Of a stretch of DNA of 64,000 nucleotides, positions 23,386-57,537 are shown piece after piece. The notes beneath the pieces were generated by a model, which saw only the letters and a list, made by a program, of their open reading frames with translations, did not search any database and was not told where the DNA came from. The translations under genes were made by a program, and so were the position numbers. The first letter of the stretch is position 1, and each line of letters begins with the position of its first letter. This DNA comes from Tupaia tana. Its lineage: Eukaryota > Chordata > Mammalia > Scandentia > Tupaiidae. Location: positions 62,001 through 126,000 of the forward strand of contig JAKSZU010000130.1 of NCBI GenBank assembly GCA_026018925.1, in the 5' to 3' direction.

Positions 23386-25072
23386 CTCGAGCAGAGAGAG
23401 ACAGAGACCTCAGAGACACAGAGACAAGGATAGAAGGCCAGAGAGGCTCCCTACCACACTACCTTTGCTTGCTGGAGGCTGAATTATGAGTAGAAAATCT
23501 TCATTTCTCCTGTGCCTGAAATATCTAGTTCCCAGTATCCATGTGGCAACTTCTCAGAGAATGGCTCAACTCTCCTGCCTGGGAGAAAGGAGCAGAAGGG
23601 CTTATTAACAAAACAAAAGAGCTGAGAACCAGAGAGTAATTCAACCTTTAAAAAAATAGCAGAAAAGAAAAATTACCAAAAAAAAAAAAGAAAATGAGGA
23701 GACAGGAGCAGAGAGAGACATAGAACTCAGAGACACAGAGACAGTGATAGAAGGCCAGAGGGGCTCCCTACCACACTAGCTTTGCTTGCTGGAGGCTGAA
23801 TTATGAGTAGAAAATCTTCATTTATCCTGTGCCTGAAATATCTAGTTCCCAGTATCCATGTGGAATCTTCTCAGAGAATGGCTCAACTCTCCTGCCTGGG
23901 AGAAAGGAGCAGAAGGGCTTATTAACAAAAAAAAAAGATGGAGCTGAGAGCCAGAGTGAAATTCTACCTTTAAAAAAATTGCAAAAAGGAAAAATTACCA
24001 AAAAAATTAAAATGGGGATTCAGGACCAGAGAGAGACAGAGACGTCAGAGACACAGAGAAAGGGATAGAAGGCCAGAGGGGCTCCCTACCACACTAGCTT
24101 TGCTTGCTGGAGGCTGAATGATGAGTAGAAAATCTTCATTTCTCCTGTGCCTGAAATATCTAGTTCCCAGTGTCCAGGTGGAAACTTCTCAGAGAATGGC
24201 TCAACTCTCCTGCCTGGGAGAAAGGAGTAGAAGGGCTTATTAACAAAATAAAAGATGGAGCTGAGTGTCAGAGAAAAATTCTACCTTTAAAAAAATCGCA
24301 AAAAGAAAAAATAACCAAAAAAAAAATGAGGAGACTGGAGCAGAGAGAGACAGAGACCTCAGAGACACAGAGACAGGGATAGAGCTCAGAGGGGCTCCCT
24401 ACCACACTAGCTTTGCTTTCTGCATGCTGAATTATGAGTAGAAAATTTTCATTTATCCTGTGCCTAAAATATCTACTTCCCAGTATCCATGTGGAAACTT
24501 TTCAGAGAATGGCACTACTCTCCTGCCTGGGAGAAAGGAGCAGAAGGGCTTATTAACAAAACAAAAGATGGAGCTGAGTGCCAGAGAGAAATTCTACCTT
24601 TAAAAAAACGCAAAAAGGAAAAATTACCAAAAAAAATAAAATGAGAATTCAGGAGCAGAGAGAGACAGAGACATCAGAGACACAGAGACAGGCATAGACG
24701 GCCAGAGGGGCTCCCTACCACACTAGCTTTGCTTGCTGGAGGCTGAATTATGAGAAGAAAATCTTCATTTCTCCTGTGCCTGAAATATCTAGTTCCCAGT
24801 ATCCATGTGGAATCTTCTCAGAGAATGGCTCAAATCTCCTGCCTGGCAGAAAGGAGCAGAAGGGCTTATTAACAAAACAAAAGATGGAGCTGAGAGCCAG
24901 AGAGAAATTCTACCTTAAAAAAAATCGCAAAAAGGAAAAATTACCAAAAAAGTAAAAATGAGGAGACAGGAGCAGAGAGAGACAGAGACCTCAGAGACAC
25001 AGAGACAGGGATAGAAGGCCAGAGGGGCTCCCTACCACACTATGTTTGCTTGCTGGAGGCTGAATTATGAAT

Positions 25073-27170
25073 AGAAAATCTTCATTTCTCCTGTGCCTGA
25101 AATATCTAGTTCCCAGTATCCATGTGGAATCTTCTCAGAGAATGGCTCAATTCTCCTGCCTGGGAGAAAGGAGCAGAAGGGCTTATTAACGAAACAAAAG
25201 ATGGAGCTGAGAGCCAGAGACAAATTTTACCATTAAAAAAATCGCAAAAAGGAAAAATTTTCATAAAAAAATGAGGATTCAGGAGCAGAGAGATACAAAA
25301 ACCTCAGAGACACAGAGACAAGTATAGAAGGACAGAGGGGCTCCCTACCACACTAGCTTTGCTTGCTGGAGGCTGAATTATGAGTAGAAAATCTTCATTT
25401 CTCGTGTGCCTGAAATATCTAGTTCCCACTATCCATGTGGTATCTTCTCAGAGAACGGCTCAACTCTCCTGCTTGGGAGAAAGGAGCAGAAGGGCTTATT
25501 AACAAAACAAAAGATGGAGCTGAGTGCCAGAGAGAAATTCCTCCTTTAAAAAAATCGCAAAATGGAAAAATTACCAAAAAAAAAAAATTAAGATTCAGGA
25601 GCAGAGAGAGACAGAGACCTCAGAGACAGAGAGACAGGGATAGAAGGTCTGAGGGGTTCCCTACCACACTAGCTTTGCTTGCCGCAGGCTGAATTTTGAG
25701 TAGAAAATTTTCATTTATCCTGTGCCTAAAATACCTTTTTCCAAGTATCCATGTGGAATCTTCTCAGAGAATGGCTCAACTCTCCTGCCTGGGAGAAAGG
25801 AGCAGAAGGGCTTATTAACAAAACAAAAGATGGAGCTGAGAGCCAGAGAGAAATTCTACCTTTTAAAAATCACAAAAAGGAAAAATTACCAAAAAAATAA
25901 AACCTGAGGAGACAGGAGCAGAGAGAGACAGAGACCTCAGAGCCAAAGAGACAGGGATAGAAAGCCAGAGGGGCTCCTTACCACACTAGCTTTGATTGCT
26001 GGAGACTGAATTATGAGTAGACAATCTTCATTTCTCCTGTGCCTGAAATATCTAGTTCCCAGTATCCATGTGGAATCTTCTCAGAGAATGGCTCAACTCT
26101 CCTGCCAGGGAGAAAGGAGCAGAAGGGCTTATTAACAAAACAAAACATGGGGCTGAGAGCCAGAGAAAAATTCTACCTTTAAAAAAATCGCAAAAAAAGA
26201 AAAATTACCAAAAAAATAAAAATGAGGAGACAGGAGCACAGAGAGACAGAGACCTCAGAGACACAGAGACAGGGATAGAAGGCCAGAGGGGCTCCCTACC
26301 ACACTAGCTTTGCTTGCTGGAGGCTGAATTATGAGTAGAAAATCTTCATTTCTCCTGTGCCTGAAATATCTAGTTCCCAGTATCCATGTGGAATCTTCTC
26401 AGAGAATGGTTCAACTCTCCTGCCTGGAAGAAAGGAGCAGAAGGGCTTATTAACAAAACAAAAGAGCTGAGAACCAGAGAGTAATTAAACCTTTCAAAAA
26501 ATCGCAGAAAGGAAAAATTACCAAAAAAAAGAAAATGAGGAGACAGGAGAAGAGAGAGACAAAGAACTCAGAGACACAGAGACAGTGATAGAAGGCCAGA
26601 GGGGCTCCCTACCACACTAGCTTTGCTTGCTGCAGGCTGAATTATGAGTAGAAAATTTTCATTTATCCTGTGCCTGAAATATCTAGTTCCCAGTATCCAT
26701 GTGGAATCTTCTCAGAGAATGGCTCAACTCTCCTGCCTGGAAGAAAAGAGCAGAAGGGCTTATTAACAAAACAAAAGAGCTGAGAGCCAGAGAAAAATTC
26801 TACATTTAAAAAAATCGCAAAAATGAAAAATTACCAAAAAAAAAAAAAAAGGAGGAGACAGGAGCAGAGAGAGACAGAGACCTGAGAGACACAGAGACAG
26901 GGATAGAAGGCCAGAGGGGCTCCCAACCACACTAGCTTTGCTTGCTGGAGGCTGAATTATGAGTAGAAAATCTTCATTTCTCCTGTGCCTGAAATATCTA
27001 GTTCCCAGTATCCATGTGGAATCTTCTCAGAGAATGGCTCAACTCTCCTTCCTGGGAAAAAGGAGCAGAAGGGCTTATTAACAAAACAAAAGATGGAGCT
27101 GAGAGCCAGAGAGAAATTCTACCTTTAGAAAAATTGCAAAAAGGAAAAATTTCCAAAAAAAAAAGACGAG
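25073..27170 (+). repeat. Class B segment, copy 3 of 3
   Basis: Partner of 21290-23385. It lies inside copy 1 of the 10,989-bp duplication, so a fourth version exists at about 36062-38159. Small differences from copy 2 include TATTAACGAAAC (25184) and AGAGCCAAAGAGAC (about 25939). Confidence 0.8.
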
Positions 27171-30100
27171 ACTGGAGCAGAGAGAGACAGAGACCTCAGA
27201 GACACAGAGACAAGGATAGAAGGCCAGAGAGGCTCCCTACCACACTACCTTTGCTTGCTGGAGGCTGAATTATGAGTAGAAAATCTTCATTTCTCCTGTG
27301 CCTGAAATATCTAGTTCCCAGTATCCATGTGGCAACTTCTCAGAGAATGGCTCAACTCTCCTGCCTGGGAGAAAGGAGCAGAAGGGCTTATTAACAAAAC
27401 AAAAGAGCTGAGAACCAGAGAGTAATTCAACCTTTAAAAAAATAGCAGAAAGGAAAAATTACCAAAAAAAAAAAAGAAAATGAGGAGACAGGAGCAGAGA
27501 GAGACATAGAACTCAGAGACACAGAGACAGTGATAGAAGGCCAGAGGGGCTCCCTACCACACTAGCTTTGCTTTCTGCATGCTGAATTATGAGTAGAAAA
27601 TTTTCATTTATCCTGTGCCTAAAATATCTACTTCCCAGTATCCATGTGGAAACTTTTCAGAGAATGGCACTACTCTCCTGCCTGGGAGAAAGGAGCAGAA
27701 GGGCTTATTAACAAAACAAAAGATGGAGCTGAGTGCCAGAGAGAAATTCTACCTTTAAAAAAACGCAAAAAGGAAAAATTACCAAAAAAAATAAAATGAG
27801 AATTCAGGAGCAGAGAGAGACAGAGACATCAGAGACACAGAGACAGGCATAGACGGCCAGAGGGGCTCCCTACCACACTAGCTTTGCTTGCTGGAGGCTG
27901 AATTATGAGAAGAAAATCTTCATTTCTCCTGTGCCTGAAATATCTAGTTCCCAGGATCCATGTGGAATCTTCTCAGAGAATGGCTCAACTCTCCTGCCTG
28001 GCAGAAAGGAGCAGAAGGGCTTATTAACAAAACAAAAGATGGAGCTGAGAGCCAGAGAGAAATTCTACCTTTAAAAAAATCGCAAAAAGGAAAAATTACC
28101 AAAAAAGTAAAAATGAGGAGACAGGAGCAGAGAGAGACAGAGACCTCAGAGACACAGAGACAGGGATAGAAGGCCAGAGGGGCTCCCTACCACACTAGCT
28201 TTGCTTGCTGGAGGCTGAATTATGAATAGAAAATCTTCATTTCTCCTGTGCCTGAAATATCTAGTTCCCAGTATCCATGTGGAAACTTCTCAGAGAATGG
28301 CTCAACTCTCCTGCTTGGGAGAAAGGAGCAGAAGGGCTTATTAACAAAACAAAAGATGGAGCTGAGAGCCAGAGAGAAATTCTACCTTTAAAAAAATTGC
28401 AAAAAGGAAAAATTTCCAAAAAAAAAGGAGGAGACAGGAGCAGAGAGAGACTGAGACCTCAGAGACACAGAGACAGGGATAGAAAGCCAGAGGGGCTCCC
28501 TACCACACTAGCTTTGCTTGCTGGAGGCTGAATTATGAGTAGAAAATCTTCATTTCTCCTGTGCCTGAAATATCTAATTCCCAGTATCCATGTGGAATCT
28601 TCTCAGAGAATGGCGAAACTCTCCTGCCTGGCAGAAAGAGCAGAAGGGCTTATTAACAAAACAAAAGATGGAGCTGAGAGCCAGAGAGAAATTCTACCTT
28701 TAAAAAATTCGCAAAAAGGAAAAATTACCAAAAAAGTAAAAAAGCGGAGACAGGAGCAGAGAGAGACAGAGACCTCAGAGACACAGAGACAGGGATAGAA
28801 GGCCAGAGGGGCTCCCTACCACACTATCTTTGCTTGCTGGAGGCTGAATTATGAATAGAAAATCTTCATTTCTCCTGTGACTGAAATATCTAGTTCCCAG
28901 TATCCATGTGGAATCTTCTCAGAGAATGGCTCAACTCTCCTGCTTGGGAGAAAGGAGCAGAAGGGCTTATTAACAAAACAAAAGATGGAGCTGCGAGCCA
29001 GAGAGAAATTCTACCATTAAAAAAATCGCAAAAAGAAAAAATTTTCAAAAAAAAAATGAGGATTCAGGAGCAGAGAGATACAAAAACCTCAGAGACACAG
29101 AGACAAGGATAGAAGGACAGAGGGGCTCCCTACCACACTAGCTTTGCTTGCTGCATGCTGAATTATGAGTAGAAAATCTTCATTTCTCGTGTGCCTGAAA
29201 TATCAAGTTCCCAGTATCCATGTGGAATCTTCTCAGAGAATGGCTCAACTCTCCTGCCTGGGAGAAAGGAGCAGAAGGGCTTATTAACAAAAAAAAAGAT
29301 GGAGCTGAGAGCCAGAGTGAAATTCTACCTTTAAAAAAATAGCAAAAAGGAAAAATTACCAAAAGAATAAAAATGAGGATTCAGGAGCAGAGAGAGACAG
29401 AGACCTCAGAGACACAGGGACAGGGATAGAAGGCCAGAGGGGATCCCTACCACACTAGCTTTGCTTGCTGGAGGCTGAATTATGAGTAGAAAATCTTCAT
29501 TTCTCCTGTGCCTGAAATATCTAGTTCCCAGTATCCATGTGGAAACTTCTCAGAGAATGGCTGCACTCTCCTGTCTTCAAGAAAGGAGTAGAAGGGCTTA
29601 TTAACAAAACAAAACATGGAGCTGAGTGTCAGAGAGAAATTCTACCTTTAAAAAATCGCAAAAAGGAAAAATTACCAAAAAAAAATGAGGAGACAGGAGC
29701 AGAGAGAGACAGAGACCTCAGAGACACAGAGACAGGGATAGAGGCCAGAGGGGCTCCCTACCACAATAGCTTTGCTTGCTGGAGGCTGAATTATGAGTAG
29801 AAAATCTTCATTTCTCCTGTGCCTGAAATATCTAGTTCCCAGTATCCATGTGGAATCTTCTCAGAGAATGGCTCAACTCTCCTGCCTGGGAGAATGGAGC
29901 AGAAGGGCTTATTAACAAAACAAAAGATGGATCAGAGAGCCAGAAAAAAATTCTACCTTTAAAAAAATCACAAAAAGGAAAAATTACCAAAAACAAAAAA
30001 ATGAGGAGACAGGAGCAGAGAGGGACACAGAACTCCGAGACACAGAGACTGCGATAGAAGGCCAGAGGGGCTCCCTACCACACTAGCTTTGCTTGCTGGA

Positions 30101-30738
30101 GGCTGAATTATGAGTAGAAAATCTTCATTTCTCCCCTGCCTGAAATATCTAGTTCCCAGTATCCATGTGGAATCTTCACAGAAAATAGCTCAACTCTCCT
30201 GCCTGGGAGAAAGGAGCAGAAGTGCTTATTAACAAAACAATAGATGGAGCTGAGAGCCAGAGAGAAAATCTACCTTTAAAAAAATCGCAAAAAGGAAAAA
30301 TTACCAAAAAAAAAAAATGAGGAGACAGGAGCAGAAAGAGACAGAGACCTCAGAGACACAGAGACAGGGATAGAAGGCCAGAGGTGTTCCCTACCACACT
30401 AGCTTTGCTTGCTCGAGGCTGAATTATGACTAGAAAATCTTCATTTCTCCTGTCCCTGAAATATCTATTTCCCAGTATCCATGTGGAAACTTCTCAGAGA
30501 ATGGCTCAACTCTCCAGCCTGGGAGAAAGGAGCAGAAGGGCTTATTAACAAAACAAAAGATGGAGCTGAGTGCCAGAGAGAAATTCTACCATTAAAAAAT
30601 CGAAAAAAGGAATAATTACCAAAAAAAAAATTAGGATTCACGACCAGAGAGAGTCAGAGATCACAGAGAAACAGAGACAGAGATAGAAGGCCAGAGGGGC
30701 TCCTTACCACACTAGCTTTGCTTACTGGAGGCTGAATT

Positions 30739-32296
30739 ATGAGTAGAAAACCTTCATTTCTCCTGTGCCTGAAATATCTAGTTCCCAGTATCCATGTGGA
30801 AACTTCTCAGGAATGGCTCAACTCTCCTGCCTGGAAAAAGGAGCAGAAGGGCTTATTAACAAACCAAAAGATGGAGCTGAGAGCCAGAGAGAAATTCTAC
30901 CTTTAAAAAAACGCAAATAGAAAAATTACCAAAAAAAAATGAGGAGACAGGAGAAGAGAGAAACAGAGAACTCGGAGACACAGAGACAGGGATAGAAGGC
31001 CAGCGGGGCTCCCTACCACACAAGGTTTGCTTGCTGGAGGCTGAATTATGAGTAGAAAACCTTCATTTCTCCTGTGCCTGAAATATCTAGTTCCCAGTAT
31101 CCATGTGGAATCTTCTCAGAGAATGGCTCAACTCCCCTGCCTGGAAAAAGGAGCAGAGGGGCTTATTAACAAAACAAAAGATGGAGCTGAGAGCCAGAGA
31201 GAAATTCTACCTTTAAAAAAACGCAAAAAGGAAAAATTACCAAAAAAAAATGAGGAGACAGGAGAAGAGAGAAACAGAGTCATCAGAGACACAGAGACTG
31301 CGAGAGAAGGCCAGAGGGGCTCCCTAGCACACTAGCTTTCCTTGATGGAGGCTTAATTATGAGTAGAAAACCTTCATTACTCCTGTGCCTGAAATATCTA
31401 GTTCCCAGTATCCATGTGGAATCTTCTCAGAGAATGGCTCAACTCTCCTGCCTGGAAAAAGGAGCAGAAGGGCTTCTTAACAAAACAAAAGATGGAGCTG
31501 AGAGCCCGAGAGAAATTCTACCTTTAAAAAAACGCAAAAAGGAAAAATTACCAAAAAAACAAATGAGGAGACAGGAGAAGAGAGAAACAGAGACCTCAGA
31601 GACACAGAGACAGGGATAGAAGGCCAGAGGGGCTCCCTACCACACTAGCTTTGCTTGCTGGAGGCTGAATTATGAGTAGAAAACCTTCATTACTCCTGTG
31701 CCTGAAATATCTGGTTCTCAGTATCCATGTGGAACCTTCTCAGAGAATGGCTCAACTCTCCTGCCTTGAAAAAGGAGCAGAAGGGCTTATTAACAAAACA
31801 AAAGATGGAGCTGAGAGCCAGAGAGAAATTCTACCTTTAAAAAAACGCAAAAAGAAAAAATAACCAAAAAAAAAATGAGGAGACAGGAGAAGAGAAAAAC
31901 AGAGACCTCAGAGACACAGAGACAGGATAGAAGGCCAGAGGGGCCCCCTACCACACTAGCTTTGCTTGCTGGAGGCTGAATTATGAGTAGAAAACCTTCA
32001 TTTCTCCTGTGCCTGAAATATCTAGTTCCCAGTATCCATGTGGAATCTTCTCAGGGAATGTCTCAATTCTCCTGCCTGTGAGAAAGGAGCAGAAGGGCTT
32101 ATTAACAAAACAAAAGATGTAGCTGAGAGTCAGAGAGAAATTCTACCTTTAAAAAAATCGCAAAAATGAAAAATTACCCCAAAAAAAATAAGGAGACAGG
32201 AGCAGAGAGAGACAGAGACCTCAGAGACACAGAGACAGGGACAGAAGGCCAGAGGGGCTCCCTACCACACTAGCTTTGCTTGCTGGAGGCTGAATT
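30739..32296 (+). repeat. 1559-bp 5-mer higher-order repeat, unit 1
   Basis: Monomers start near 30739, 31048, 31359, 31672 and 31983. The series continues at 32297 with a second, diverged round (32297, 32607, 32918, 33231, 33546) offset by about 1559 bp. Private markers are CTCAGGAATGG with CGCAAATAG in the first unit, GGCTTAATTATGAG before the third, and GGGAATGTCTCAATTC in the fifth. Confidence 0.8.
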
Positions 32297-33859
32297 ATGA
32301 GAAGAAAACCTTCATTTCTCCTGTGCCTGAAATATCTAGTTCCCAGTATCCATGTGGAAACTTCTCAGAGAATGGCTCAACTCTCCTGCCTGGAAAAAGG
32401 AGCAGAAGGGCTTATTAACAAAACAAAAGATGGATCTGAGAGCCCGAGAGAAATTCTACCTTTAAAAAAACGCAAAAAGGAAAAATTACCAAAAAAAATG
32501 AGGAGACAGGAGAAGAGAGAAACAGAGAACTTGGAGACACAGAGACAGGGATAGAAGGCCAGAGGGGCTCCCTACCACACTAGCTTTGCTTGCTGGAGGC
32601 TGAATTATGAGTAGAAAACCTTCATTTCTCCTGTGCCTGAAATATCTAGTTCCCAGTATCCATGTGGAATCTTCTCAGAGAATGGCTCAACTCTCCTGCC
32701 TGGAAAAAGGAGCAGAGGGGCTTATTAACAAAACAAAAGATGGAGCTGAGAGCCAGAGAGAAATTCTACCTTTAAAAAAACGCAAAAAGGAAAAATTAAC
32801 AAAAAAAAATGAGGAGACAGGAGAAGAGAGAAACAGAGACATCAGAGACACAGAGACAGGGATAGAAGGCCAGAGGGGCTCACTAGCACACTAGCTTTCC
32901 TTGCTGGAGGCTTAATTATGAGTAGAAAACCTTCATTACTCCTGTGCCTGAAATATCTAGTACCCAGTATCCATGTGGAATCTTCTCAGAGAATGGCTCA
33001 ACTCTCCTGCCTGGAAAAAGGAGTAGAAGGGCTTATTAACAAAACAAAAGATGGAGCTGAGAGCCCGAGAGAAATTCTACCTTTAAAAAAACGCAAAAAG
33101 GAAAAATTACCAAAAAAACAAATGAGGAGACAGGAGAAGAGAGAAACAGAGACCTCAGAGACACAGAGACAGGGATAGAAGGCCAGAGGGGCTCCCTACC
33201 ACACTAGCTTTGCTTGCTGGAGGCTTAATTATGAGTAGAAAACCTTCATTTCTCCTGTGCCTGAAATATCTGGTTCCCAGTATCCATGTGGAATCTTCTC
33301 AGAGAATGGCTCAACTCTCCTGCCTTGAAAAAGGAGCAGAAGGGCTTATTAACAAAACAAAAGATGGAGCTTAGAGCCAGAGAGAAATTCTACCTTTAAA
33401 AAAACGCAAAAAGAAAAAATTACCAAAAAAAAAAAAAATGAGGAGACAGGAGAAGAGAAAAAGAGAGACCTCAGAGACACAGAGACAGGATAGAAGGCCA
33501 GAGGGGCCCCCTACCACACTAGCTTTGCTTGCTGGAGGCTGAATTATGAGTAGAAAACCTTCATTTCTCCTGTGCCTGAAATATCTAGTTCCCAGTATAC
33601 ATGTGGAATCTTCTCAGAGAATGGCTCAACTCTCCCACCTGGAAAAAGGAGCAGAAGTGCTTATTAACAAAACAAAAGATGGAGCTGAGAGCCAGAGAGA
33701 AATTCTAACTTTAAAAAAATTGCAAAAAGGAAAAATTACCAAAAAAAAAAATGAGGAGACAGGAGCAGAAAGAGACAGAGACCTCAGAGACACAGAGACA
33801 GGGATAAAAGGGCAGAGGGGTTCCCTACCACACTAGCTTTGCTTGCTCGAGGCTGAATT
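32297..33859 (+). repeat. 1559-bp 5-mer higher-order repeat, unit 2 (diverged)
   Basis: Pairs 31048/32607 and 31359/32918 are both offset by 1559 bp and share the TTTCCTTG and GGCTTAATTATGAG variants. The fifth unit (33546) differs from its partner, being class A in front and class B behind, so this round has been altered by exchange. Confidence 0.75.
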
Positions 33860-34813
33860 ATGACTAGAAAATCTTCATTTCTCCTGTCCCTGAAATATCT
33901 ATTTCCCAGTATCCATGTGGAACCTTCTCAGAGAATGGCTCAACTCTCCAGCCTGGGAGAAAGGAACAGAAGGGCTTATTAACAAAACAAAAGATGGAGC
34001 TGATTGCCAGAGAGAAATTCTACCATTAAAAAATCGCAAAAAGGAAAAATTACCAAAAAAAAAATTAGGATTCAGGACCAGAGAGAGACAGAGATCACAG
34101 AGAAACAGAGACAGAGATAGAAGGCCAGAGGGGCTCCTTACCACACTAGCTTTGCTTACTGGAGGCTGAATTATGAGTAGAAAATCTTCATTTCTCCTGT
34201 GCCTGAAATATCTAGTTCCCAGTATCCATGTGGAATCTTCTCAGAGAATGGCTCAACTCTCCTGCCTGGAAAAAGGAGCAGAAGGTCTTATTAACAAAAC
34301 AAAAGATGGAGCTGAGAGCCAGAGAGAAATTCTACCTTTAAAAAAACGCAAAAAGGAAAAATTACCAAAAAAAAAATTGAGGAGACAGGAGAAGAGAGAA
34401 ACAGAGACCTCAGAGACACAGAGACAGGGATAGAAGGCCAGAGGGGCTCCCTACAACACTAGCTTTGCTTGCTGGAGGCTGAATTATGAGTAGAAAACCT
34501 TCATTTCTCCTGTGCCTGAAATATCTATTTCCCAGTATCCATGTGGAAACTTCTCAGAGAATGGCTCAACTCTCCTGCCTGGAAAAAGGAGCAGAAGGGC
34601 TTATTAACAAAACAAAAGATGGATCTGAGAGCCAGAGAGAAATTCTACCTTTAAAAAAACGCAAAAAGGTAAAATTACCAAAAAAAAATGAGGAGACAAG
34701 AGAGAAACAGAGACCTCGGAGACACAGAGACAGGGATAGTAGGCCAGAGGGGCTCCCTTCCACACTAGCTTTGCTTGCTGGAGGCTGAATTATGAGTAGA
34801 AAACCTTCATTTC

Positions 34814-37800
34814 TCCTGTGCCTGAAATATCTAGTTCCCAGTATCCATGTGGAATCTTCTCAGAGAATGGCTCAACTCTCCTGCCTGGGAGAAAGGAGCA
34901 GAAGGGCTTATTAACAAAAAAAAAAGATGGAGCTGAGAGCCAGAGTGAAATTCTACCTTTAAAAAAATTGCAAAAAGGAAAAATTACCAAAAAAATTAAA
35001 ATGGGGATTCAGGACCAGAGAGAGACAGAGACGTCAGAGACACAGAGAAAGGGATAGAAGGCCAGAGGGGCTCCCTACCACACTAGCTTTGCTTGCTGGA
35101 GGCTGAATGATGAGTAGAAAATCTTCATTTCTCCTGTGCCTGAAATATCTAGTTCCCAGTGTCCAGGTGGAAACTTCTCAGAGAATGGCTCAACTCTCCT
35201 GCCTGGGAGAAAGGAGTAGAAGGGCTTATTAACAAAATAAAAGATGGAGCTGAGTGTCAGAGAAAAATTCTACCTTTAAAAAAATCGCAAAAAGAAAAAA
35301 TAACCAAAAAAAAAATGAGGAGACTGGAGCAGAGAGAGACAGAGACCTCAGAGACACAGAGACAGGGATAGAGCTCAGAGGGGCTCCCTACCACACTAGC
35401 TTTGCTTTCTGCATGCTGAATTATGAGTAGAAAATTTTCATTTATCCTGTGCCTAAAATATCTACTTCCCAGTATCCATGTGGAAACTTTTCAGAGAATG
35501 GCACTACTCTCCTGCCTGGGAGAAAGGAGCAGAAGGGCTTATTAACAAAACAAAAGATGGAGCTGAGTGCCAGAGAGAAATTCTACCTTTAAAAAAACGC
35601 AAAAAGGAAAAATTACCAAAAAAAATAAAATGAGAATTCAGGAGCAGAGAGAGACAGAGACATCAGAGACACAGAGACAGGCATAGACGGCCAGAGGGGC
35701 TCCCTACCACACTAGCTTTGCTTGCTGGAGGCTGAATTATGAGAAGAAAATCTTCATTTCTCCTGTGCCTGAAATATCTAGTTCCCAGTATCCATGTGGA
35801 ATCTTCTCAGAGAATGGCTCAAATCTCCTGCCTGGCAGAAAGGAGCAGAAGGGCTTATTAACAAAACAAAAGATGGAGCTGAGAGCCAGAGAGAAATTCT
35901 ACCTTAAAAAAAATCGCAAAAAGGAAAAATTACCAAAAAAGTAAAAATGAGGAGACAGGAGCAGAGAGAGACAGAGACCTCAGAGACACAGAGACAGGGA
36001 TAGAAGGCCAGAGGGGCTCCCTACCACACTATGTTTGCTTGCTGGAGGCTGAATTATGAATAGAAAATCTTCATTTCTCCTGTGCCTGAAATATCTAGTT
36101 CCCAGTATCCATGTGGAATCTTCTCAGAGAATGGCTCAATTCTCCTGCCTGGGAGAAAGGAGCAGAAGGGCTTATTAACGAAACAAAAGATGGAGCTGAG
36201 AGCCAGAGACAAATTTTACCATTAAAAAAATCGCAAAAAGGAAAAATTTTCATAAAAAAATGAGGATTCAGGAGCAGAGAGATACAAAAACCTCAGAGAC
36301 ACAGAGACAAGTATAGAAGGACAGAGGGGCTCCCTACCACACTAGCTTTGCTTGCTGGAGGCTGAATTATGAGTAGAAAATCTTCATTTCTCGTGTGCCT
36401 GAAATATCTAGTTCCCACTATCCATGTGGTATCTTCTCAGAGAACGGCTCAACTCTCCTGCTTGGGAGAAAGGAGCAGAAGGGCTTATTAACAAAACAAA
36501 AGATGGAGCTGAGTGCCAGAGAGAAATTCCTCCTTTAAAAAAATCGCAAAATGGAAAAATTACCAAAAAAAAAAAATTAAGATTCAGGAGCAGAGAGAGA
36601 CAGAGACCTCAGAGACAGAGAGACAGGGATAGAAGGTCTGAGGGGTTCCCTACCACACTAGCTTTGCTTGCCGCAGGCTGAATTTTGAGTAGAAAATTTT
36701 CATTTATCCTGTGCCTAAAATACCTTTTTCCAAGTATCCATGTGGAATCTTCTCAGAGAATGGCTCAACTCTCCTGCCTGGGAGAAAGGAGCAGAAGGGC
36801 TTATTAACAAAACAAAAGATGGAGCTGAGAGCCAGAGAGAAATTCTACCTTTTAAAAATCACAAAAAGGAAAAATTACCAAAAAAATAAAACCTGAGGAG
36901 ACAGGAGCAGAGAGAGACAGAGACCTCAGAGCCAAAGAGACAGGGATAGAAAGCCAGAGGGGCTCCTTACCACACTAGCTTTGATTGCTGGAGACTGAAT
37001 TATGAGTAGACAATCTTCATTTCTCCTGTGCCTGAAATATCTAGTTCCCAGTATCCATGTGGAATCTTCTCAGAGAATGGCTCAACTCTCCTGCCAGGGA
37101 GAAAGGAGCAGAAGGGCTTATTAACAAAACAAAACATGGGGCTGAGAGCCAGAGAAAAATTCTACCTTTAAAAAAATCGCAAAAAAAGAAAAATTACCAA
37201 AAAAATAAAAATGAGGAGACAGGAGCACAGAGAGACAGAGACCTCAGAGACACAGAGACAGGGATAGAAGGCCAGAGGGGCTCCCTACCACACTAGCTTT
37301 GCTTGCTGGAGGCTGAATTATGAGTAGAAAATCTTCATTTCTCCTGTGCCTGAAATATCTAGTTCCCAGTATCCATGTGGAATCTTCTCAGAGAATGGTT
37401 CAACTCTCCTGCCTGGAAGAAAGGAGCAGAAGGGCTTATTAACAAAACAAAAGAGCTGAGAACCAGAGAGTAATTAAACCTTTCAAAAAATCGCAGAAAG
37501 GAAAAATTACCAAAAAAAAGAAAATGAGGAGACAGGAGAAGAGAGAGACAAAGAACTCAGAGACACAGAGACAGTGATAGAAGGCCAGAGGGGCTCCCTA
37601 CCACACTAGCTTTGCTTGCTGCAGGCTGAATTATGAGTAGAAAATTTTCATTTATCCTGTGCCTGAAATATCTAGTTCCCAGTATCCATGTGGAATCTTC
37701 TCAGAGAATGGCTCAACTCTCCTGCCTGGAAGAAAAGAGCAGAAGGGCTTATTAACAAAACAAAAGAGCTGAGAGCCAGAGAAAAATTCTACATTTAAAA

Positions 37801-40800
37801 AAATCGCAAAAATGAAAAATTACCAAAAAAAAAAAAAAAGGAGGAGACAGGAGCAGAGAGAGACAGAGACCTGAGAGACACAGAGACAGGGATAGAAGGC
37901 CAGAGGGGCTCCCAACCACACTAGCTTTGCTTGCTGGAGGCTGAATTATGAGTAGAAAATCTTCATTTCTCCTGTGCCTGAAATATCTAGTTCCCAGTAT
38001 CCATGTGGAATCTTCTCAGAGAATGGCTCAACTCTCCTTCCTGGGAAAAAGGAGCAGAAGGGCTTATTAACAAAACAAAAGATGGAGCTGAGAGCCAGAG
38101 AGAAATTCTACCTTTAGAAAAATTGCAAAAAGGAAAAATTTCCAAAAAAAAAAGACGAGACTGGAGCAGAGAGAGACAGAGACCTCAGAGACACAGAGAC
38201 AAGGATAGAAGGCCAGAGAGGCTCCCTACCACACTACCTTTGCTTGCTGGAGGCTGAATTATGAGTAGAAAATCTTCATTTCTCCTGTGCCTGAAATATC
38301 TAGTTCCCAGTATCCATGTGGCAACTTCTCAGAGAATGGCTCAACTCTCCTGCCTGGGAGAAAGGAGCAGAAGGGCTTATTAACAAAACAAAAGAGCTGA
38401 GAACCAGAGAGTAATTCAACCTTTAAAAAAATAGCAGAAAGGAAAAATTACCAAAAAAAAAAAAGAAAATGAGGAGACAGGAGCAGAGAGAGACATAGAA
38501 CTCAGAGACACAGAGACAGTGATAGAAGGCCAGAGGGGCTCCCTACCACACTAGCTTTGCTTTCTGCATGCTGAATTATGAGTAGAAAATTTTCATTTAT
38601 CCTGTGCCTAAAATATCTACTTCCCAGTATCCATGTGGAAACTTTTCAGAGAATGGCACTACTCTCCTGCCTGGGAGAAAGGAGCAGAAGGGCTTATTAA
38701 CAAAACAAAAGATGGAGCTGAGTGCCAGAGAGAAATTCTACCTTTAAAAAAACGCAAAAAGGAAAAATTACCAAAAAAAATAAAATGAGAATTCAGGAGC
38801 AGAGAGAGACAGAGACATCAGAGACACAGAGACAGGCATAGACGGCCAGAGGGGCTCCCTACCACACTAGCTTTGCTTGCTGGAGGCTGAATTATGAGAA
38901 GAAAATCTTCATTTCTCCTGTGCCTGAAATATCTAGTTCCCAGGATCCATGTGGAATCTTCTCAGAGAATGGCTCAACTCTCCTGCCTGGCAGAAAGGAG
39001 CAGAAGGGCTTATTAACAAAACAAAAGATGGAGCTGAGAGCCAGAGAGAAATTCTACCTTTAAAAAAATCGCAAAAAGGAAAAATTACCAAAAAAGTAAA
39101 AATGAGGAGACAGGAGCAGAGAGAGACAGAGACCTCAGAGACACAGAGACAGGGATAGAAGGCCAGAGGGGCTCCCTACCACACTAGCTTTGCTTGCTGG
39201 AGGCTGAATTATGAATAGAAAATCTTCATTTCTCCTGTGCCTGAAATATCTAGTTCCCAGTATCCATGTGGAAACTTCTCAGAGAATGGCTCAACTCTCC
39301 TGCTTGGGAGAAAGGAGCAGAAGGGCTTATTAACAAAACAAAAGATGGAGCTGAGAGCCAGAGAGAAATTCTACCTTTAAAAAAATTGCAAAAAGGAAAA
39401 ATTTCCAAAAAAAAAGGAGGAGACAGGAGCAGAGAGAGACTGAGACCTCAGAGACACAGAGACAGGGATAGAAAGCCAGAGGGGCTCCCTACCACACTAG
39501 CTTTGCTTGCTGGAGGCTGAATTATGAGTAGAAAATCTTCATTTCTCCTGTGCCTGAAATATCTAATTCCCAGTATCCATGTGGAATCTTCTCAGAGAAT
39601 GGCGAAACTCTCCTGCCTGGCAGAAAGAGCAGAAGGGCTTATTAACAAAACAAAAGATGGAGCTGAGAGCCAGAGAGAAATTCTACCTTTAAAAAATTCG
39701 CAAAAAGGAAAAATTACCAAAAAAGTAAAAAAGCGGAGACAGGAGCAGAGAGAGACAGAGACCTCAGAGACACAGAGACAGGGATAGAAGGCCAGAGGGG
39801 CTCCCTACCACACTATCTTTGCTTGCTGGAGGCTGAATTATGAATAGAAAATCTTCATTTCTCCTGTGACTGAAATATCTAGTTCCCAGTATCCATGTGG
39901 AATCTTCTCAGAGAATGGCTCAACTCTCCTGCTTGGGAGAAAGGAGCAGAAGGGCTTATTAACAAAACAAAAGATGGAGCTGCGAGCCAGAGAGAAATTC
40001 TACCATTAAAAAAATCGCAAAAAGAAAAAATTTTCAAAAAAAAAATGAGGATTCAGGAGCAGAGAGATACAAAAACCTCAGAGACACAGAGACAAGGATA
40101 GAAGGACAGAGGGGCTCCCTACCACACTAGCTTTGCTTGCTGCATGCTGAATTATGAGTAGAAAATCTTCATTTCTCGTGTGCCTGAAATATCAAGTTCC
40201 CAGTATCCATGTGGAATCTTCTCAGAGAATGGCTCAACTCTCCTGCCTGGGAGAAAGGAGCAGAAGGGCTTATTAACAAAAAAAAAGATGGAGCTGAGAG
40301 CCAGAGTGAAATTCTACCTTTAAAAAAATAGCAAAAAGGAAAAATTACCAAAAGAATAAAAATGAGGATTCAGGAGCAGAGAGAGACAGAGACCTCAGAG
40401 ACACAGGGACAGGGATAGAAGGCCAGAGGGGATCCCTACCACACTAGCTTTGCTTGCTGGAGGCTGAATTATGAGTAGAAAATCTTCATTTCTCCTGTGC
40501 CTGAAATATCTAGTTCCCAGTATCCATGTGGAAACTTCTCAGAGAATGGCTGCACTCTCCTGTCTTCAAGAAAGGAGTAGAAGGGCTTATTAACAAAACA
40601 AAACATGGAGCTGAGTGTCAGAGAGAAATTCTACCTTTAAAAAATCGCAAAAAGGAAAAATTACCAAAAAAAAATGAGGAGACAGGAGCAGAGAGAGACA
40701 GAGACCTCAGAGACACAGAGACAGGGATAGAGGCCAGAGGGGCTCCCTACCACAATAGCTTTGCTTGCTGGAGGCTGAATTATGAGTAGAAAATCTTCAT

Positions 40801-41727
40801 TTCTCCTGTGCCTGAAATATCTAGTTCCCAGTATCCATGTGGAATCTTCTCAGAGAATGGCTCAACTCTCCTGCCTGGGAGAATGGAGCAGAAGGGCTTA
40901 TTAACAAAACAAAAGATGGATCAGAGAGCCAGAAAAAAATTCTACCTTTAAAAAAATCACAAAAAGGAAAAATTACCAAAAACAAAAAAATGAGGAGACA
41001 GGAGCAGAGAGGGACACAGAACTCCGAGACACAGAGACTGCGATAGAAGGCCAGAGGGGCTCCCTACCACACTAGCTTTGCTTGCTGGAGGCTGAATTAT
41101 GAGTAGAAAATCTTCATTTCTCCCCTGCCTGAAATATCTAGTTCCCAGTATCCATGTGGAATCTTCACAGAAAATAGCTCAACTCTCCTGCCTGGGAGAA
41201 AGGAGCAGAAGTGCTTATTAACAAAACAATAGATGGAGCTGAGAGCCAGAGAGAAAATCTACCTTTAAAAAAATCGCAAAAAGGAAAAATTACCAAAAAA
41301 AAAAAATGAGGAGACAGGAGCAGAAAGAGACAGAGACCTCAGAGACACAGAGACAGGGATAGAAGGCCAGAGGTGTTCCCTACCACACTAGCTTTGCTTG
41401 CTCGAGGCTGAATTATGACTAGAAAATCTTCATTTCTCCTGTCCCTGAAATATCTATTTCCCAGTATCCATGTGGAAACTTCTCAGAGAATGGCTCAACT
41501 CTCCAGCCTGGGAGAAAGGAGCAGAAGGGCTTATTAACAAAACAAAAGATGGAGCTGAGTGCCAGAGAGAAATTCTACCATTAAAAAATCGAAAAAAGGA
41601 ATAATTACCAAAAAAAAAATTAGGATTCACGACCAGAGAGAGTCAGAGATCACAGAGAAACAGAGACAGAGATAGAAGGCCAGAGGGGCTCCTTACCACA
41701 CTAGCTTTGCTTACTGGAGGCTGAATT
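34814..41727 (+). repeat. Class B block, second copy
   Basis: This block is the shifted copy (+10,989 bp) of 23825-30738. It holds the same subtypes in the same order, including GTGTCCAGGTGGAAAC at 35159 (compare 24170) and TATTAACGAAAC near 36173 (compare 25184). It follows a short class A stretch with the switch inside the unit starting at 34798. No gene is present. Confidence 0.85.
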
Positions 41728-44700
41728 ATGAGTAGAAAACCTTCATTTCTCCTGTGCCTGAAATATCTAGTTCCCAGTATCCATGTGGAAACTTCTCAGG
41801 AATGGCTCAACTCTCCTGCCTGGAAAAAGGAGCAGAAGGGCTTATTAACAAACCAAAAGATGGAGCTGAGAGCCAGAGAGAAATTCTACCTTTAAAAAAA
41901 CGCAAATAGAAAAATTACCAAAAAAAAATGAGGAGACAGGAGAAGAGAGAAACAGAGAACTCGGAGACACAGAGACAGGGATAGAAGGCCAGCGGGGCTC
42001 CCTACCACACAAGGTTTGCTTGCTGGAGGCTGAATTATGAGTAGAAAACCTTCATTTCTCCTGTGCCTGAAATATCTAGTTCCCAGTATCCATGTGGAAT
42101 CTTCTCAGAGAATGGCTCAACTCCCCTGCCTGGAAAAAGGAGCAGAGGGGCTTATTAACAAAACAAAAGATGGAGCTGAGAGCCAGAGAGAAATTCTACC
42201 TTTAAAAAAACGCAAAAAGGAAAAATTACCAAAAAAAAATGAGGAGACAGGAGAAGAGAGAAACAGAGTCATCAGAGACACAGAGACTGCGAGAGAAGGC
42301 CAGAGGGGCTCCCTAGCACACTAGCTTTCCTTGATGGAGGCTTAATTATGAGTAGAAAACCTTCATTACTCCTGTGCCTGAAATATCTAGTTCCCAGTAT
42401 CCATGTGGAATCTTCTCAGAGAATGGCTCAACTCTCCTGCCTGGAAAAAGGAGCAGAAGGGCTTCTTAACAAAACAAAAGATGGAGCTGAGAGCCCGAGA
42501 GAAATTCTACCTTTAAAAAAACGCAAAAAGGAAAAATTACCAAAAAAACAAATGAGGAGACAGGAGAAGAGAGAAACAGAGACCTCAGAGACACAGAGAC
42601 AGGGATAGAAGGCCAGAGGGGCTCCCTACCACACTAGCTTTGCTTGCTGGAGGCTGAATTATGAGTAGAAAACCTTCATTACTCCTGTGCCTGAAATATC
42701 TGGTTCTCAGTATCCATGTGGAACCTTCTCAGAGAATGGCTCAACTCTCCTGCCTTGAAAAAGGAGCAGAAGGGCTTATTAACAAAACAAAAGATGGAGC
42801 TGAGAGCCAGAGAGAAATTCTACCTTTAAAAAAACGCAAAAAGAAAAAATAACCAAAAAAAAAATGAGGAGACAGGAGAAGAGAAAAACAGAGACCTCAG
42901 AGACACAGAGACAGGATAGAAGGCCAGAGGGGCCCCCTACCACACTAGCTTTGCTTGCTGGAGGCTGAATTATGAGTAGAAAACCTTCATTTCTCCTGTG
43001 CCTGAAATATCTAGTTCCCAGTATCCATGTGGAATCTTCTCAGGGAATGTCTCAATTCTCCTGCCTGTGAGAAAGGAGCAGAAGGGCTTATTAACAAAAC
43101 AAAAGATGTAGCTGAGAGTCAGAGAGAAATTCTACCTTTAAAAAAATCGCAAAAATGAAAAATTACCCCAAAAAAAATAAGGAGACAGGAGCAGAGAGAG
43201 ACAGAGACCTCAGAGACACAGAGACAGGGACAGAAGGCCAGAGGGGCTCCCTACCACACTAGCTTTGCTTGCTGGAGGCTGAATTATGAGAAGAAAACCT
43301 TCATTTCTCCTGTGCCTGAAATATCTAGTTCCCAGTATCCATGTGGAAACTTCTCAGAGAATGGCTCAACTCTCCTGCCTGGAAAAAGGAGCAGAAGGGC
43401 TTATTAACAAAACAAAAGATGGATCTGAGAGCCCGAGAGAAATTCTACCTTTAAAAAAACGCAAAAAGGAAAAATTACCAAAAAAAATGAGGAGACAGGA
43501 GAAGAGAGAAACAGAGAACTTGGAGACACAGAGACAGGGATAGAAGGCCAGAGGGGCTCCCTACCACACTAGCTTTGCTTGCTGGAGGCTGAATTATGAG
43601 TAGAAAACCTTCATTTCTCCTGTGCCTGAAATATCTAGTTCCCAGTATCCATGTGGAATCTTCTCAGAGAATGGCTCAACTCTCCTGCCTGGAAAAAGGA
43701 GCAGAGGGGCTTATTAACAAAACAAAAGATGGAGCTGAGAGCCAGAGAGAAATTCTACCTTTAAAAAAACGCAAAAAGGAAAAATTAACAAAAAAAAATG
43801 AGGAGACAGGAGAAGAGAGAAACAGAGACATCAGAGACACAGAGACAGGGATAGAAGGCCAGAGGGGCTCACTAGCAAACTAGCTTTCCTTGCTGGAGGC
43901 TTAATTATGAGTAGAAAACCTTCATTACTCCTGTGCCTGAAATATCTAGTACCCAGTATCCATGTGGAATCTTCTCAGAGAATGGCTCAACTCTCCTGCC
44001 TGGAAAAAGGAGTAGAAGGGCTTATTAACAAAACAAAAGATGGAGCTGAGAGCCCGAGAGAAATTCTACCTTTAAAAAAACGCAAAAAGGAAAAATTACC
44101 AAAAAAACAAATGAGGAGACAGGAGAAGAGAGAAACAGAGACCTCAGAGACACAGAGACAGGGATAGAAGGCCAGAGGGGCTCCCTACCACACTAGCTTT
44201 GCTTGCTGGAGGCTTAATTATGAGTAGAAAACCTTCATTTCTCCTGTGCCTGAAATATCTGGTTCCCAGTATCCATGTGGAATCTTCTCAGAGAATGGCT
44301 CAACTCTCCTGCCTTGAAAAAGGAGCAGAAGGGCTTATTAACAAAACAAAAGATGGAGCTTAGAGCCAGAGAGAAATTCTACCTTTAAAAAAACGCAAAA
44401 AGAAAAAATTACCAAAAAAAAAAAAAATGAGGAGACAGGAGAAGAGAAAAACAGAGACCTCAGAGACACAGAGACAGGATAGAAGGCCAGAGGGGCCCCC
44501 TACCACACTAGCTTTGCTTGCTGGAGGCTGAATTATGAGTAGAAAACCTTCATTTCTCCTGTGCCTGAAATATCTAGTTCCCAGTATACATGTGGAATCT
44601 TCTCAGAGAATGGCTCAACTCTCCCACCTGGAAAAAGGAGCAGAAGTGCTTATTAACAAAACAAAAGATGGAGCTGAGAGCCAGAGAGAAATTCTAACTT

Positions 44701-45161
44701 TAAAAAAATTGCAAAAAGGAAAAATTACCAAAAAAAAAAATGAGGAGACAGGAGCAGAAAGAGACAGAGACCTCAGAGACACAGAGACAGGGATAAAAGG
44801 GCAGAGGGGTTCCCTACCACACTAGCTTTGCTTGCTCGAGGCTGAATTATGACTAGAAAATCTTCATTTCTCCTGTCCCTGAAATATCTATTTCCCAGTA
44901 TCCATGTGGAACCTTCTCAGAGAATGGCTCAACTCTCCAGCCTGGGAGAAAGGAACAGAAGGGCTTATTAACAAAACAAAAGATGGAGCTGATTGCCAGA
45001 GAGAAATTCTACCATTAAAAAATCGCAAAAAGGAAAAATTACCAAAAAAAAAATTAGGATTCAGGACCAGAGAGAGACAGAGATCACAGAGAAACAGAGA
45101 CAGAGATAGAAGGCCAGAGGGGCTCCTTACCACACTAGCTTTGCTTACTGGAGGCTGAATT
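41728..45161 (+). repeat. Mixed A/B block, second copy
   Basis: This is the shifted copy of 30739-34172, with class B-like units at about 42972-43285 and 44849-45161. Two single-base differences from the first copy are seen here: 43878 is A where 32889 is C, and 44452 is C where 33463 is G. Identity ends at 45256, where the sequence joins a class A series that resembles 1202 onward. Confidence 0.83.
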
Positions 45162-48100
45162 ATGAGTAGAAAATCTTCATTTCTCCTGTGCCTGAAATAT
45201 CTAGTTCCCAGTATCCATGTGGAATCTTCTCAGAGAATGGCTCAACTCTCCTGCCTTGAAAAAGGAGCAGAAGGGCTTATTAACAAAACAAAAGATGGAG
45301 CTGAGAGCCAGAGAGAAATCCTACCTTTAAAAAAACGCAAAAAGGAAACATTACCAAAAAAAAATAAGGAGACAGGAGAAGAGAGAAACAGAGACCTCAG
45401 AGACACAGAGACAGGATAGAAGGCCAGAGGGGCCCCCTACCACACTAGCATTGCTTGCTGGAGGCTGAATTTAGAGTAGAAAACCATCATTTCTCCTGTG
45501 CCTGAAATATGTATTTCCCAGTATACATGTGGAATCTTCTCAGAGAATGGCTCAACTCTCCTGCCTGGAAAAAGGAGCAGAAGGGCTTATTAACAAAACA
45601 AAAGATGGAGCTGAGAGCCAGAGAGAAATTCTACCTTTAAAAAAACGCAAAAAGGAAACATTACCAAAAAAAAATGAGGAGACAGGAGAAGAGAGAAACA
45701 GAGACCTCAGAGACACAGAGACAGTGATAGAAGGCCAGAGGGGCTCCCTACCACACTAGGTTTGCTTGCTGGAGGCTTAATTATGAGTAGAAAACCTTCA
45801 TTTCTCCTGTGCCTGAAATATCTAATTCCCAGTATCCATGTGGAATCTTCTCAGAGAATGGCTCAACTCTCCTGCCTGGAAAAAGGTGCAGAAGGGCTTA
45901 TTAACAAAACAAAAGATGGAGCTGAGAGCCAGAGAGAAATTCTACCTTTAAAAAAATGTAAAAAGGAAAAATTAACAAAAAAAAATGAGGAGACAGGAGA
46001 AGAGAGAAACAGAGACCTCAGAGGCACAGAGACAGGGATAGAAGACCACAGGGGCTCCCTACCACACTAGCTTTGCTTGCTGGAGGCTGAATTATGAGTA
46101 GAAAACCTTCATTTCACCTGTGCCTGAAATATCTAGTTCCCAGTATCCATGTGGAATCTTCTCAGAGAATGGATTAACTCTCCTGCCTGAAAAAGGAGCA
46201 GAAGGGCTTATTAACAAAACAAAAGATGGAGCTGAGAGCCAGAGAGAAATTCTACCTTTAAAAAAACGCAAAAAGGAAAAATTACCAAAAAAAAAAATAA
46301 GGAGACAGGAGAAGAGAGAAACAGAGACCTCAGAGACACAGAGACAGGGATAGAAGGCCAGAGGGGCTCCCTAACACACTAGCTTTGCTTGCTGGAGGCT
46401 GAATTATGAGTAGAAAACCTTCATTTCTCCTGTGCCTGAAATATCTATTTCCCAGTATCCATATGGAAACTTCTCAGAGAATGGCTCAACTCTCCTGCCT
46501 GGAAAAAGAGCAGAAGGGCTTATTAACAAAACAAAAGATGGATCTGAGAGCCAGAGAGAAATTCTAGCTTTAAAAAAACGCAAAAAGGAAAAATTACCAA
46601 AAAAAAAATGAGGAGACAGGAGAAGAGAGAAACAGAGACCTCGGAGACACAGAGACAGGGATAGAAGGCCAGAGTGGCTCCCTACCACACTAGCTTTGCT
46701 TACTGGAGGCTGAATTATGAGTAGAAAACCTTCATTTCTCCTGTGCCTGAAATATCTAGTTCCCAGTATCCATGTGGAATCTTCTCAGAGAATGGCTCAA
46801 CTCTCCTGCCTGGAAAAAGGAGCAGAGGGGCTTATTAACAAAACAAAAGATGGAGCTGAGAGCCAGAGAGAAATTCTACCTTTAAAAAAACGCAAAAAGA
46901 AAAAATTACCAAAAAAAAAAATGAGGAGACAGGAGAAGAGAGAAACAGAGACCTCAGAGACACAGAGACAGTGATAGAAGGCCAGAGGGGCTCCCTACCA
47001 CAGTAGCTTTGCTTGCTGGAGGCTGAATTATGAGTAGAAAACCTTCATTTCTCCTGTGCCTGAAATATCTAGTTCCCAGTATCCATGTGGAAACTTCTCA
47101 GAGAATGGCTCATCTCTCCTGCCTTGAAAAAGGAGCAGAAGGGCTTATTAACAAAACAAAAGATGGAGCTGAGAGCCAGAGAGAAATTCTACCTTTAAAA
47201 AAACGCAAAAAGGAAAAATTACGAAAAAAAAAAATGAGGAGACAGGAGAAGAGAGAAACAGAGACCTCAGAGACCCAGAGACAGGGATAGAAGGACAGAG
47301 GGGCTCCCTACCACACTAGCTTTGCTTGGTGGAGGCTGAATTATGAGTAGAAAACCTTCATTTCTCCTGTGCCTGAAATATCTAGTTCCCAGTATCCATG
47401 TGGAATCTTCTCAGAGAATGGCTCAACTCTCCTGCCTGGAAAAAGGAGCAGAAGGTCTTATTAACAAAACAAAAATGGAGCTGAGAGCCAGAGAGAAATT
47501 CTTCCTTTAAAAAAACGCAAAAAGGAAAAATTACCAAAAAAAAATGAGGAGACAGGAGAAGAGAGAAAAAGAGATCTCAGAGGCACAGAGACAGGGATAG
47601 AAGACCAGAAGGGCTCCCTACCACACTAGCTTTGCTTGCTGGAGGCTTAATTATGAGTAGAAAACCTTCATTACTCCTGTGCCTGAAATATCTAGTTCCC
47701 AGTATCCATGTGGAATCTTCTCAGAGAATGGCTCAACTGTCCTGCCTGGAAAAAGGAGCAGAAGGGCTTATTAACAAAACAAAAGATGGAGCTGAGAGCC
47801 AGAGAGAAATTCTACCTTTTAAAAAATGCAAAAAGGAAAAATTACCAAAAAAAAATGAGGAGACAGGAGAAGAGAGAAACAGAGACCTCAGAGACACAGA
47901 GACAGGGATAGAAGGCCAGAGGGGCTCCCTACCACAGTAGCTTTGCTTGCTGGAGGCTGAATTATGAGTAGAAAACCTTCATTTCTCCTGTGCCTGAAAT
48001 ATCTATTTCCCAGTATCCATGTGGAATCTTCTCAGAGAATGGCTCAACTCTCCTGCCTGGAAAAAGGAGCAGAAGGTCTTATTAACAAAACAAAAGATAG

Positions 48101-49081
48101 AGCTGAGAGCCAGAGAGAAATTCTACCTTTAAAAAAACGCAAAAAGGAAAAATTACCAAAAAAAAAAATGAGGAGACAGGAGAAGAGAGAAACAGAGTCC
48201 TCAGAGACACAGAGACAGGGATAGAAGGCCAGAGGGGCTCCCTACCGCACTAGCTTTGCTTGCTGGAGGCTGAATTATGAGTAGAAAACCTTCATTTCTC
48301 CTGTGCCTGAAATATCTAGTTCCCAGTATCCATGTGGAAACTTCTCAGAGAATGGCTCATCTCTCCTGCCTTGAAAAAGGAGCAGAAGGGCTTATTAACA
48401 AAACAAAAGATGGAGCTGAGAGCCAGAGAGAAATTCTACCTTTAAAAAAATGCAAAAAGGAAAAATTACCAAAAAAAAATGAGGAGACAGGAGAAGAGAG
48501 AAACAGAGACCTCAGAGACACAGAGACAGGGATAGAAGGCCAGAGGGGCTCCCTACCACACTAGCTTTGCTTGCTGGAGGCTGAATTATGAGTAGAAAAC
48601 CTTCATTTCTCCTGTGCCTGAAATATCTAGTTCCCAGTATCCATGTGGAATCTTCTCAGAGAATGGCTCAACTCTCCTGCCTGGAAAAAGGAGCAGAAGG
48701 TCTTATTAACAAAACAAAAGATGGAGCTGAGAGCCAGAGAGAAATTCTACCTTTAAAAAAACGCAAAAAGGAAAAATTACCAAAAAAAAAAATGAGGAGA
48801 CAGGAGAAGAGAGAAAAAGAGACCTCAGAGGCACAGAGACAGGGTAGAAGACCAGAGGGGCTCCCTACCACACTAGCTTTGCTTGCTGGAGGCTGAATTA
48901 TGAGTAGAAAACCTTCATTTCTCCTGTGCCTGAAATATCTAGTTCCCAGTATCCATGTGGAAACTTCTCAGGGAATGGCTCAGCTCTCCTGCCTGGAAAA
49001 AGGAGCAGAAGGTCTTATTAACAAAACAAAAGATGGATCTGAGAGCCAGAGAGAAATTCAACCTTTAAATAAACGCAAAAA

Positions 49082-49358
49082 TGGGGGACCAGCAGTTAGT
49101 GTAATGGCTATGTCGCTGGACTCCCACGTAGTCGACCGCGGTTCGAGTCCCGGACCCGGCGGCTTAAACTCACGCCGGGCGCGTGTGCGTGCGTGCCCAA
49201 GATCCCGAGAGGAGAATGGAGGAGAAGGGATTGCGGCGTGGCCATCCCCCCTGGGGGGTGATTTCCTGCTTTCTATCTCTCTGTCTCTCTCTGTCTGTCT
49301 GGCGAGCGAACGCGCCCTATAGAAAAAACCTCTCCAAAAAAGAAAAAAAAAAAAAAAG
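49082..49358 (+). mobile_element. tRNA-derived SINE, copy 3
   Basis: Same target position. The left flank has one substitution (AAATAAACGCAAAAA), and the right flank 49359-49372 is intact. It keeps the sequence states of copies 1 and 2 (TAGTGTAATGG, GGCGGCTTAAAC, GCGCCCTATAG), and its surroundings match 9012-10480, so it shares a recent ancestor with copy 2. CGAGCGAACGCG replaces CGAGCGCACGCG. Confidence 0.9.
49097..49150 (+). promoter_or_regulatory. Internal pol III promoter, SINE copy 3
   Basis: The A box (49097-49107) and B box (49140-49150) are intact and identical to those of copies 1 and 2. Confidence 0.8.
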
Positions 49359-57394: not shown

Positions 57395-57537
57395 AAAAAA
57401 CGCCACAAGGAAAAATTACCAAAAAAAAATGAGGAGACAGGAGAAGAGAGAAAAAGAGACCTCAGAGACACCGAGACAGGGATAGAAGTCCAGAGGGGCT
57501 CCCTACCACACTAGCTTTGCTTGCTGGAGGCTGAATT

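Follow-up and report, generated by a model that had tools for sequence, protein, structure and literature searches.

The window, the whole stretch of 64,000 nucleotides that was analysed (1-64,000, + strand), is an array of an A-rich satellite with a monomer of about 313 bp, which lies in a single orientation, extends beyond both window ends and is broken within the window only by six SINE-like inserts (Table 1). This long head-to-tail repetition of one monomer in one orientation is the arrangement of a satellite DNA array. Tandem Repeats Finder reported a period of 313 with 165.4 copies at 1-51,867 and a period of 312 with 38.1 copies at 52,139-64,000, and the monomer anchors gave 203 hits, four of them false, leaving 199 monomers. 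No 25-mer of the window was common to both strands, indicating that all monomers run in the same direction, and the AT skew was 0.258-0.345 per 2-kb step, the + strand being A-rich. The window contains no N, its longest stop-free stretch in six frames is 170 codons, and it presents no sign of coding content.

Table 1. Positions of the features described in the text; monomers are numbered in order along the window.
Feature	Position	Strand	Remarks
Copy 1	23,825-34,267	+	Monomers 74-106 plus edges; source copy in the favoured reading
Spacer of 546 bp	34,268-34,813	+	Remainder of monomer 107 with the larger part of 108; unrepeated after copy 2
Copy 2	34,814-45,256	+	Monomers 109-141 plus edges; new copy in the favoured reading
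Left join of copy 2	34,814-34,884	+	71 bp identical to copy 1 and to the segment of monomers 2-3
Right join of copy 2	45,204-45,256	+	53 bp identical to copy 1 and to the segment of monomer 25
Downstream flank	45,257-46,451	+	Monomers 142-145, matching 4-7
Substitution, C (copy 1)/A (copy 2)	32,889/43,878	+	A taken as derived
Substitution, G (copy 1)/C (copy 2)	33,463/44,452	+	G taken as derived
SINE-like insert 1	3,566-3,818		
SINE-like insert 2	9,815-10,067		
SINE-like insert 3	49,080-49,332		
SINE-like insert 4	51,865-52,118		
SINE-like insert 5	54,956-55,208		
SINE-like insert 6	57,118-57,372		

The median pairwise distance was 7.5% among the 199 monomers and 6.7% between neighbours, both medians taking in the partial monomer 198 and three wrongly trimmed monomers (162, 171, and 177), which are three of the six that bear inserts (trimmed strings 736-740 long) and whose own distances were not used. 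These four monomers were left out of the join scores, the neighbour lists and the exhaustive pair count (195 of the 199 used) as well as of the clustering, and the list of duplications, taken from diagonals, includes them. Two monomer flavours seen by eye were not split by the clustering, and the class called A-type below was assigned by hand. One monomer of 335 bp, at 61,645-61,979, carries a 24-bp internal tandem duplication. Literature searches on the 313-bp satellite returned no named satellite among the matches listed, and we make no claim as to whether it is already described in print; exact patterns of the satellite and of the SINE-like insert had no match in viral and other non-eukaryotic contig collections.

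Direct comparison at a shift of +10,989 bp revealed that a block of 10,443 bp is present twice, with exact-match runs at 23,825-32,888, 32,890-33,462, and 33,464-34,267; on the remaining diagonals of the window, no exact repeat exceeds 1,368 bp. The comparison was made directly because the 10,989 diagonal was not among the 60 listed rows of a self-BLAST of the window. Alignment of the two blocks showed 10,441 identities, two mismatches and no gaps, and thus the coordinates, the period and the count of about 33 monomers given in the initial annotation hold, and the two substitutions noticed there are all the differences that exist between the copies. Its further statement that neighbouring monomers differ far more from each other agrees with the median neighbour distance given above, against two differences in 10,443 bp. 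Each copy comprises 33 monomers, 74-106 facing 109-141, and the period equals exactly 35 monomers (74-108). A unit of 35 monomers with a period of 10,989 bp, far less diverged than the neighbouring monomers, resembles a higher-order repeat; unlike higher-order repeats, it occurs within the window in two copies only rather than many-fold, and the second copy lacks the last two monomers.

The array contains other duplications. An older one, of about 20 monomers at 624-13,440, pairs monomers 2-21 with 23-40: at a spacing of 19 monomers, aligning 9-21 with 28-40 over about 4.4 kb gave 22 mismatches and 4 gap columns; at a spacing of 21, aligning 2-5 with 23-26 over about 1.25 kb gave 8 mismatches with 2 gap columns. 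The second copy of this duplication has undergone an internal loss, in which monomer 27 alone stands opposite monomers 6-8, and the unrepeated monomer 22 forms a spacer between the copies. Monomers 166-170 match 172-176, six apart, at a mean distance of 0.8%, and monomers 48-64 show a ladder of 4-5 monomers; among the listed duplications of at least five monomers, the one of 35 monomers is the least diverged. Given duplications of various ages in the same array, its sequence indicates that the array copies its own pieces at several scales and that such events are routine here. Phase-keeping multi-monomer duplications of various ages, nested in one array, are likewise described for human alpha-satellite (PMC8997354, PMC11034957, PMC11062924), which differs in its monomer of about 171 bp as against 313 bp here. 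The core of the CENP-B box, searched as an exact motif on both strands, did not occur in the window.

The edges of the two copies keep monomer phase, as expected of a single unequal exchange: on the left, 24 bases separate the edge from the monomer end in each copy (offsets 293/317 and 282/306), and on the right the offset is 48 for copy 1 and copy 2 alike. If identical sisters had undergone one reciprocal exchange, the 546-bp spacer would also be repeated after copy 2, and the spacer does not recur there; the repeated length is 10,443 bp against the period of 10,989 bp. The best other match of 34,280-34,820 is 7,249-7,791 (97.1%), and monomers 107 and 108 differ from monomer 142 by 4.5 and 6.2%, and from every monomer of 142-160 by at least 1.6 and 2.9%, respectively. 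Since copy 2 has no trailing spacer, one reciprocal sister exchange is insufficient by itself, and a clean single exchange of that kind was rejected; a single-exchange account has to be supplemented by another jump, by the subsequent loss of three monomers, or by exchange partners that were already unequal. The proposal of a very recent unequal exchange in the initial annotation is thus retained as far as a recent recombinational duplication is concerned, with two differences, one of them private to each copy, and phase-keeping edges, and is given up for a single exchange between identical sisters.

Both ends of copy 2 lie within perfect homologies. At the left join, the match with the sequence before copy 1 stops at 34,813 and the match with the segments of monomers 1-3 and 22-24 stops before 34,885; at the right join, the match with monomers 24-26 begins after 45,203 and the match with copy 1 stops at 45,256, with one further mismatch to monomer 4 at 45,208. 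Support for six joins was assessed by whether the same two neighbours occur together elsewhere in the array. The neighbours of join 73-74 are matched together by monomers 64-65 (2.2%; 43% of joins are better), while joins 108-109 (5.7%; 94% better) and 141-142 (6.7%; 96% better), the two that flank copy 2, find the least support elsewhere among the four edge joins, and join 106-107 is also weak (4.5%; 84% better). In the older duplication, it is join 21-22, closing the first copy, that finds the least support (5.4%), and join 40-41 is supported (2.2%). Because the edges sit where monomers are much alike, with an identity to the consensus of 0.97-0.98 over the first 40 bases compared to 0.91-0.93 at 120-200, the placement of the joins may reflect the visibility of edges as much as a preference in exchange.

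The surroundings of copy 2 have counterparts elsewhere in the array. Monomer 108 differs from monomer 2, and monomer 142 from monomer 4, by 1.0% each; 2 and 4 have exactly one monomer between them, and the same order is found at monomers 23 and 25 (108 at 1.3%, 142 at 0.6%). Since the older duplication made 2-4 and 23-25 a pair of copies, they count as one witness and not as two. As good a match as that of 108 and 142 was found for 7 of 2,781 random pairs, 12 of 2,646 pairs of the hand-classed A-type and 108 of 35,196 ordered pairs taken exhaustively, counts that are not independent because the array is built of duplications. Monomers 3 and 24 are 0.6% apart and any further relative is at a distance of at least 4.7%, so that a monomer of the 3/24 kind is absent between 108 and 142. 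Upstream, monomer 107 is not close to monomer 1 (3.8%) or 22 (2.9%), and the matching order on that side therefore spans little over one monomer (34,459-34,884 against the segment of monomers 1-3). Downstream, monomers 142-145 match 4-7 at a mean distance of 1.4%, and 45,204-46,200 matches 1,244-2,241 at 98.7%. Between aligned positions there are 10,390 bp here and 333-335 bp at the other two segments, corresponding to a net gain of about 10.06 kb, or 32 monomers. With the weakest joins flanking it, and with 108 and 142 matching monomers that stand one apart elsewhere, copy 2 looks like the new copy, set where one monomer is missing by way of homologous joins that fall at one and the same conserved place of the monomer.

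The polarity of the two substitutions was examined in the columns of 192 of the 199 monomers, the six insert-bearing monomers and one partial monomer being dropped. The column of 32,889 holds C in 187 of the 192 and A in 5 (43,878 included), and that of 33,463 holds C in 179, A in 12 and G in 1. The seven nearest monomers listed have C at both columns, the lists for 32,889/43,878 being made per copy with the copy itself set apart. With C the commonest base at both columns, the A of copy 2 and the G of copy 1 seem to be derived, one private change in each copy. One private change per side is the expectation for independent mutation after copying, and two haplotypes could also differ in this way. 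The difference rate is 1.9e-4 per site (95% Poisson range 2.3e-5 to 6.9e-4), which at an assumed mammal-like rate of 2.2e-9 per site and year gives the block copy an age of about 44,000 years, with a range of 5,000-157,000. As mutation rates are described as raised in and around human centromeres (PMC11062924), this date is a loose one.

These observations could be accounted for, with a chance that we put at about even, by a recent out-of-register copying inside the satellite array that involved two jumps. The earlier order would likely have been monomers 74-106, 107, 108, one monomer of the 3/24 kind, and 142 onward. A break near the 3/24-like monomer, during repair or replication, would have led the end of monomer 108 to join the start of monomer 74 on the sister, 35 monomers backward, within the 71-bp perfect homology; 33 monomers would then have been copied, and the new strand would have switched from the end of monomer 106 to monomer 142 within the 53-bp perfect homology. 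Afterwards, one substitution would have arisen in each copy. Out-of-register break-induced copying is a published model, and as it is described (PMC8997354, PMC11034957) it covers the backward jump; simple unequal crossover is argued to be insufficient for new human alpha-satellite blocks (PMC11062924). Against this reading, the sequence is the same whether a single event jumped twice or two events took place separately, the older right-hand join is not certain, as join 106-107 is also weakly supported, and the 3/24 monomer might rather be a gain of the other lineage. The surroundings of the joins favour a copied-in block over one plain exchange and predict an empty site in other haplotypes. 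Block copies with joins that can be read in this way offer a chance to separate simple unequal exchange from break-repair copying in satellites; apart from the evidence of the joins, this would be normal satellite turnover, an ordinary process. It is doubtful, and in our judgement quite improbable, that the array grows in general by a double-jump break repair that goes tens of monomers back and a few forward, here turning one monomer into 33, with exchange at a single conserved point of the monomer, about -24 to +48 around the boundary. If such growth were general here, exchange would take place preferentially at this conserved stretch, and the lengths of the blocks would be set by it; the older duplication of monomers 2-21 and 23-40 is laid out differently from the young one, which disfavours such a rule.

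The same arrangement would also follow from a tandem duplication of all 35 monomers (74-108), by unequal exchange or break-induced replication, after which the second copy lost three monomers, namely 107, 108 and the one of the 3/24 kind, or from an exchange between unequal haplotypes, one of which already had none of these three. Either course accommodates the period of exactly 35 monomers; a small loss is seen in the older duplication as well, where the shift falls from 21 to 19 monomers, and the two substitutions could be haplotype differences. Both courses need one more event than the copying with two jumps, and we regard this explanation as rather unlikely, if still worth entertaining. 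Gene conversion, known as a homogenising process in satellites (PMC8997354), could in principle have kept an old duplication alike; the identity is nevertheless even across 10.4 kb with sharp edges, and the neighbouring older duplication has accumulated the 22 mismatches and 4 gap columns given above, which leaves this explanation very improbable.

An assembly artefact, in which two haplotypes were joined in series or a single sequence was entered twice, would readily produce copies with only two differences, and adjacent near-identical copies are what PMC9516828 describes as false duplications in long-read vertebrate assemblies, sometimes joined without a gap by sequence that reads do not support. 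The false copies described there are mostly, not constantly, separated by gaps, whereas here no gap stands between the copies, the edges are in monomer phase, and each join falls within a perfect homology, of 71 bp on the left and 53 bp on the right, lengths that we judge short for an assembler overlap. The absence of N together with the seamless joins makes an artefact less likely. Moreover, the sequence after copy 1 differs from that after copy 2, so that one sequence was not simply entered twice, a difference that two joined haplotypes would still fit, and the window also contains older duplications that resemble this one in kind. We consider an artefact to be improbable on the whole, and retain the out-of-register copying as the favoured reading.

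Two further features are related to the block. Monomers 76 and 86, ten apart, are identical, as are their copies 111 and 121 (at 24,480, 27,635, 35,469, and 38,624), forming a 413-bp exact match inside each block; this is probably the trace of a smaller conversion or exchange, older than the block copy since it is present in both copies. At 61,980-64,000, monomers 192-198 (198 being partial) match 96-102 and 131-137 at about 1.3-2.9%, and on this similarity they are an older relative of the tail of the block, running past the window end.

The SINE-like inserts are about 253 bp long, with a tRNA-like head and an A-rich tail as judged by eye. A search of Rfam with 3,432-4,060, which holds one of the six, gave two matches with E up to 1, both under the gathering score; ARAGORN, run with the bacterial code, reported no tRNA gene in the window, and a literature search for a SINE amplified together with a satellite found none. 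All six are located at the same monomer site in the same orientation and are flanked by AAAAAACGCAAAAA or variants of it. This sharing of site, orientation and flanks by six monomers suggests that a single SINE-like insertion was multiplied together with the array. The six insert bodies differ by 0.8-5.1%, a count that includes ragged ends, and this divergence is a possible second clock for the layers of the array.
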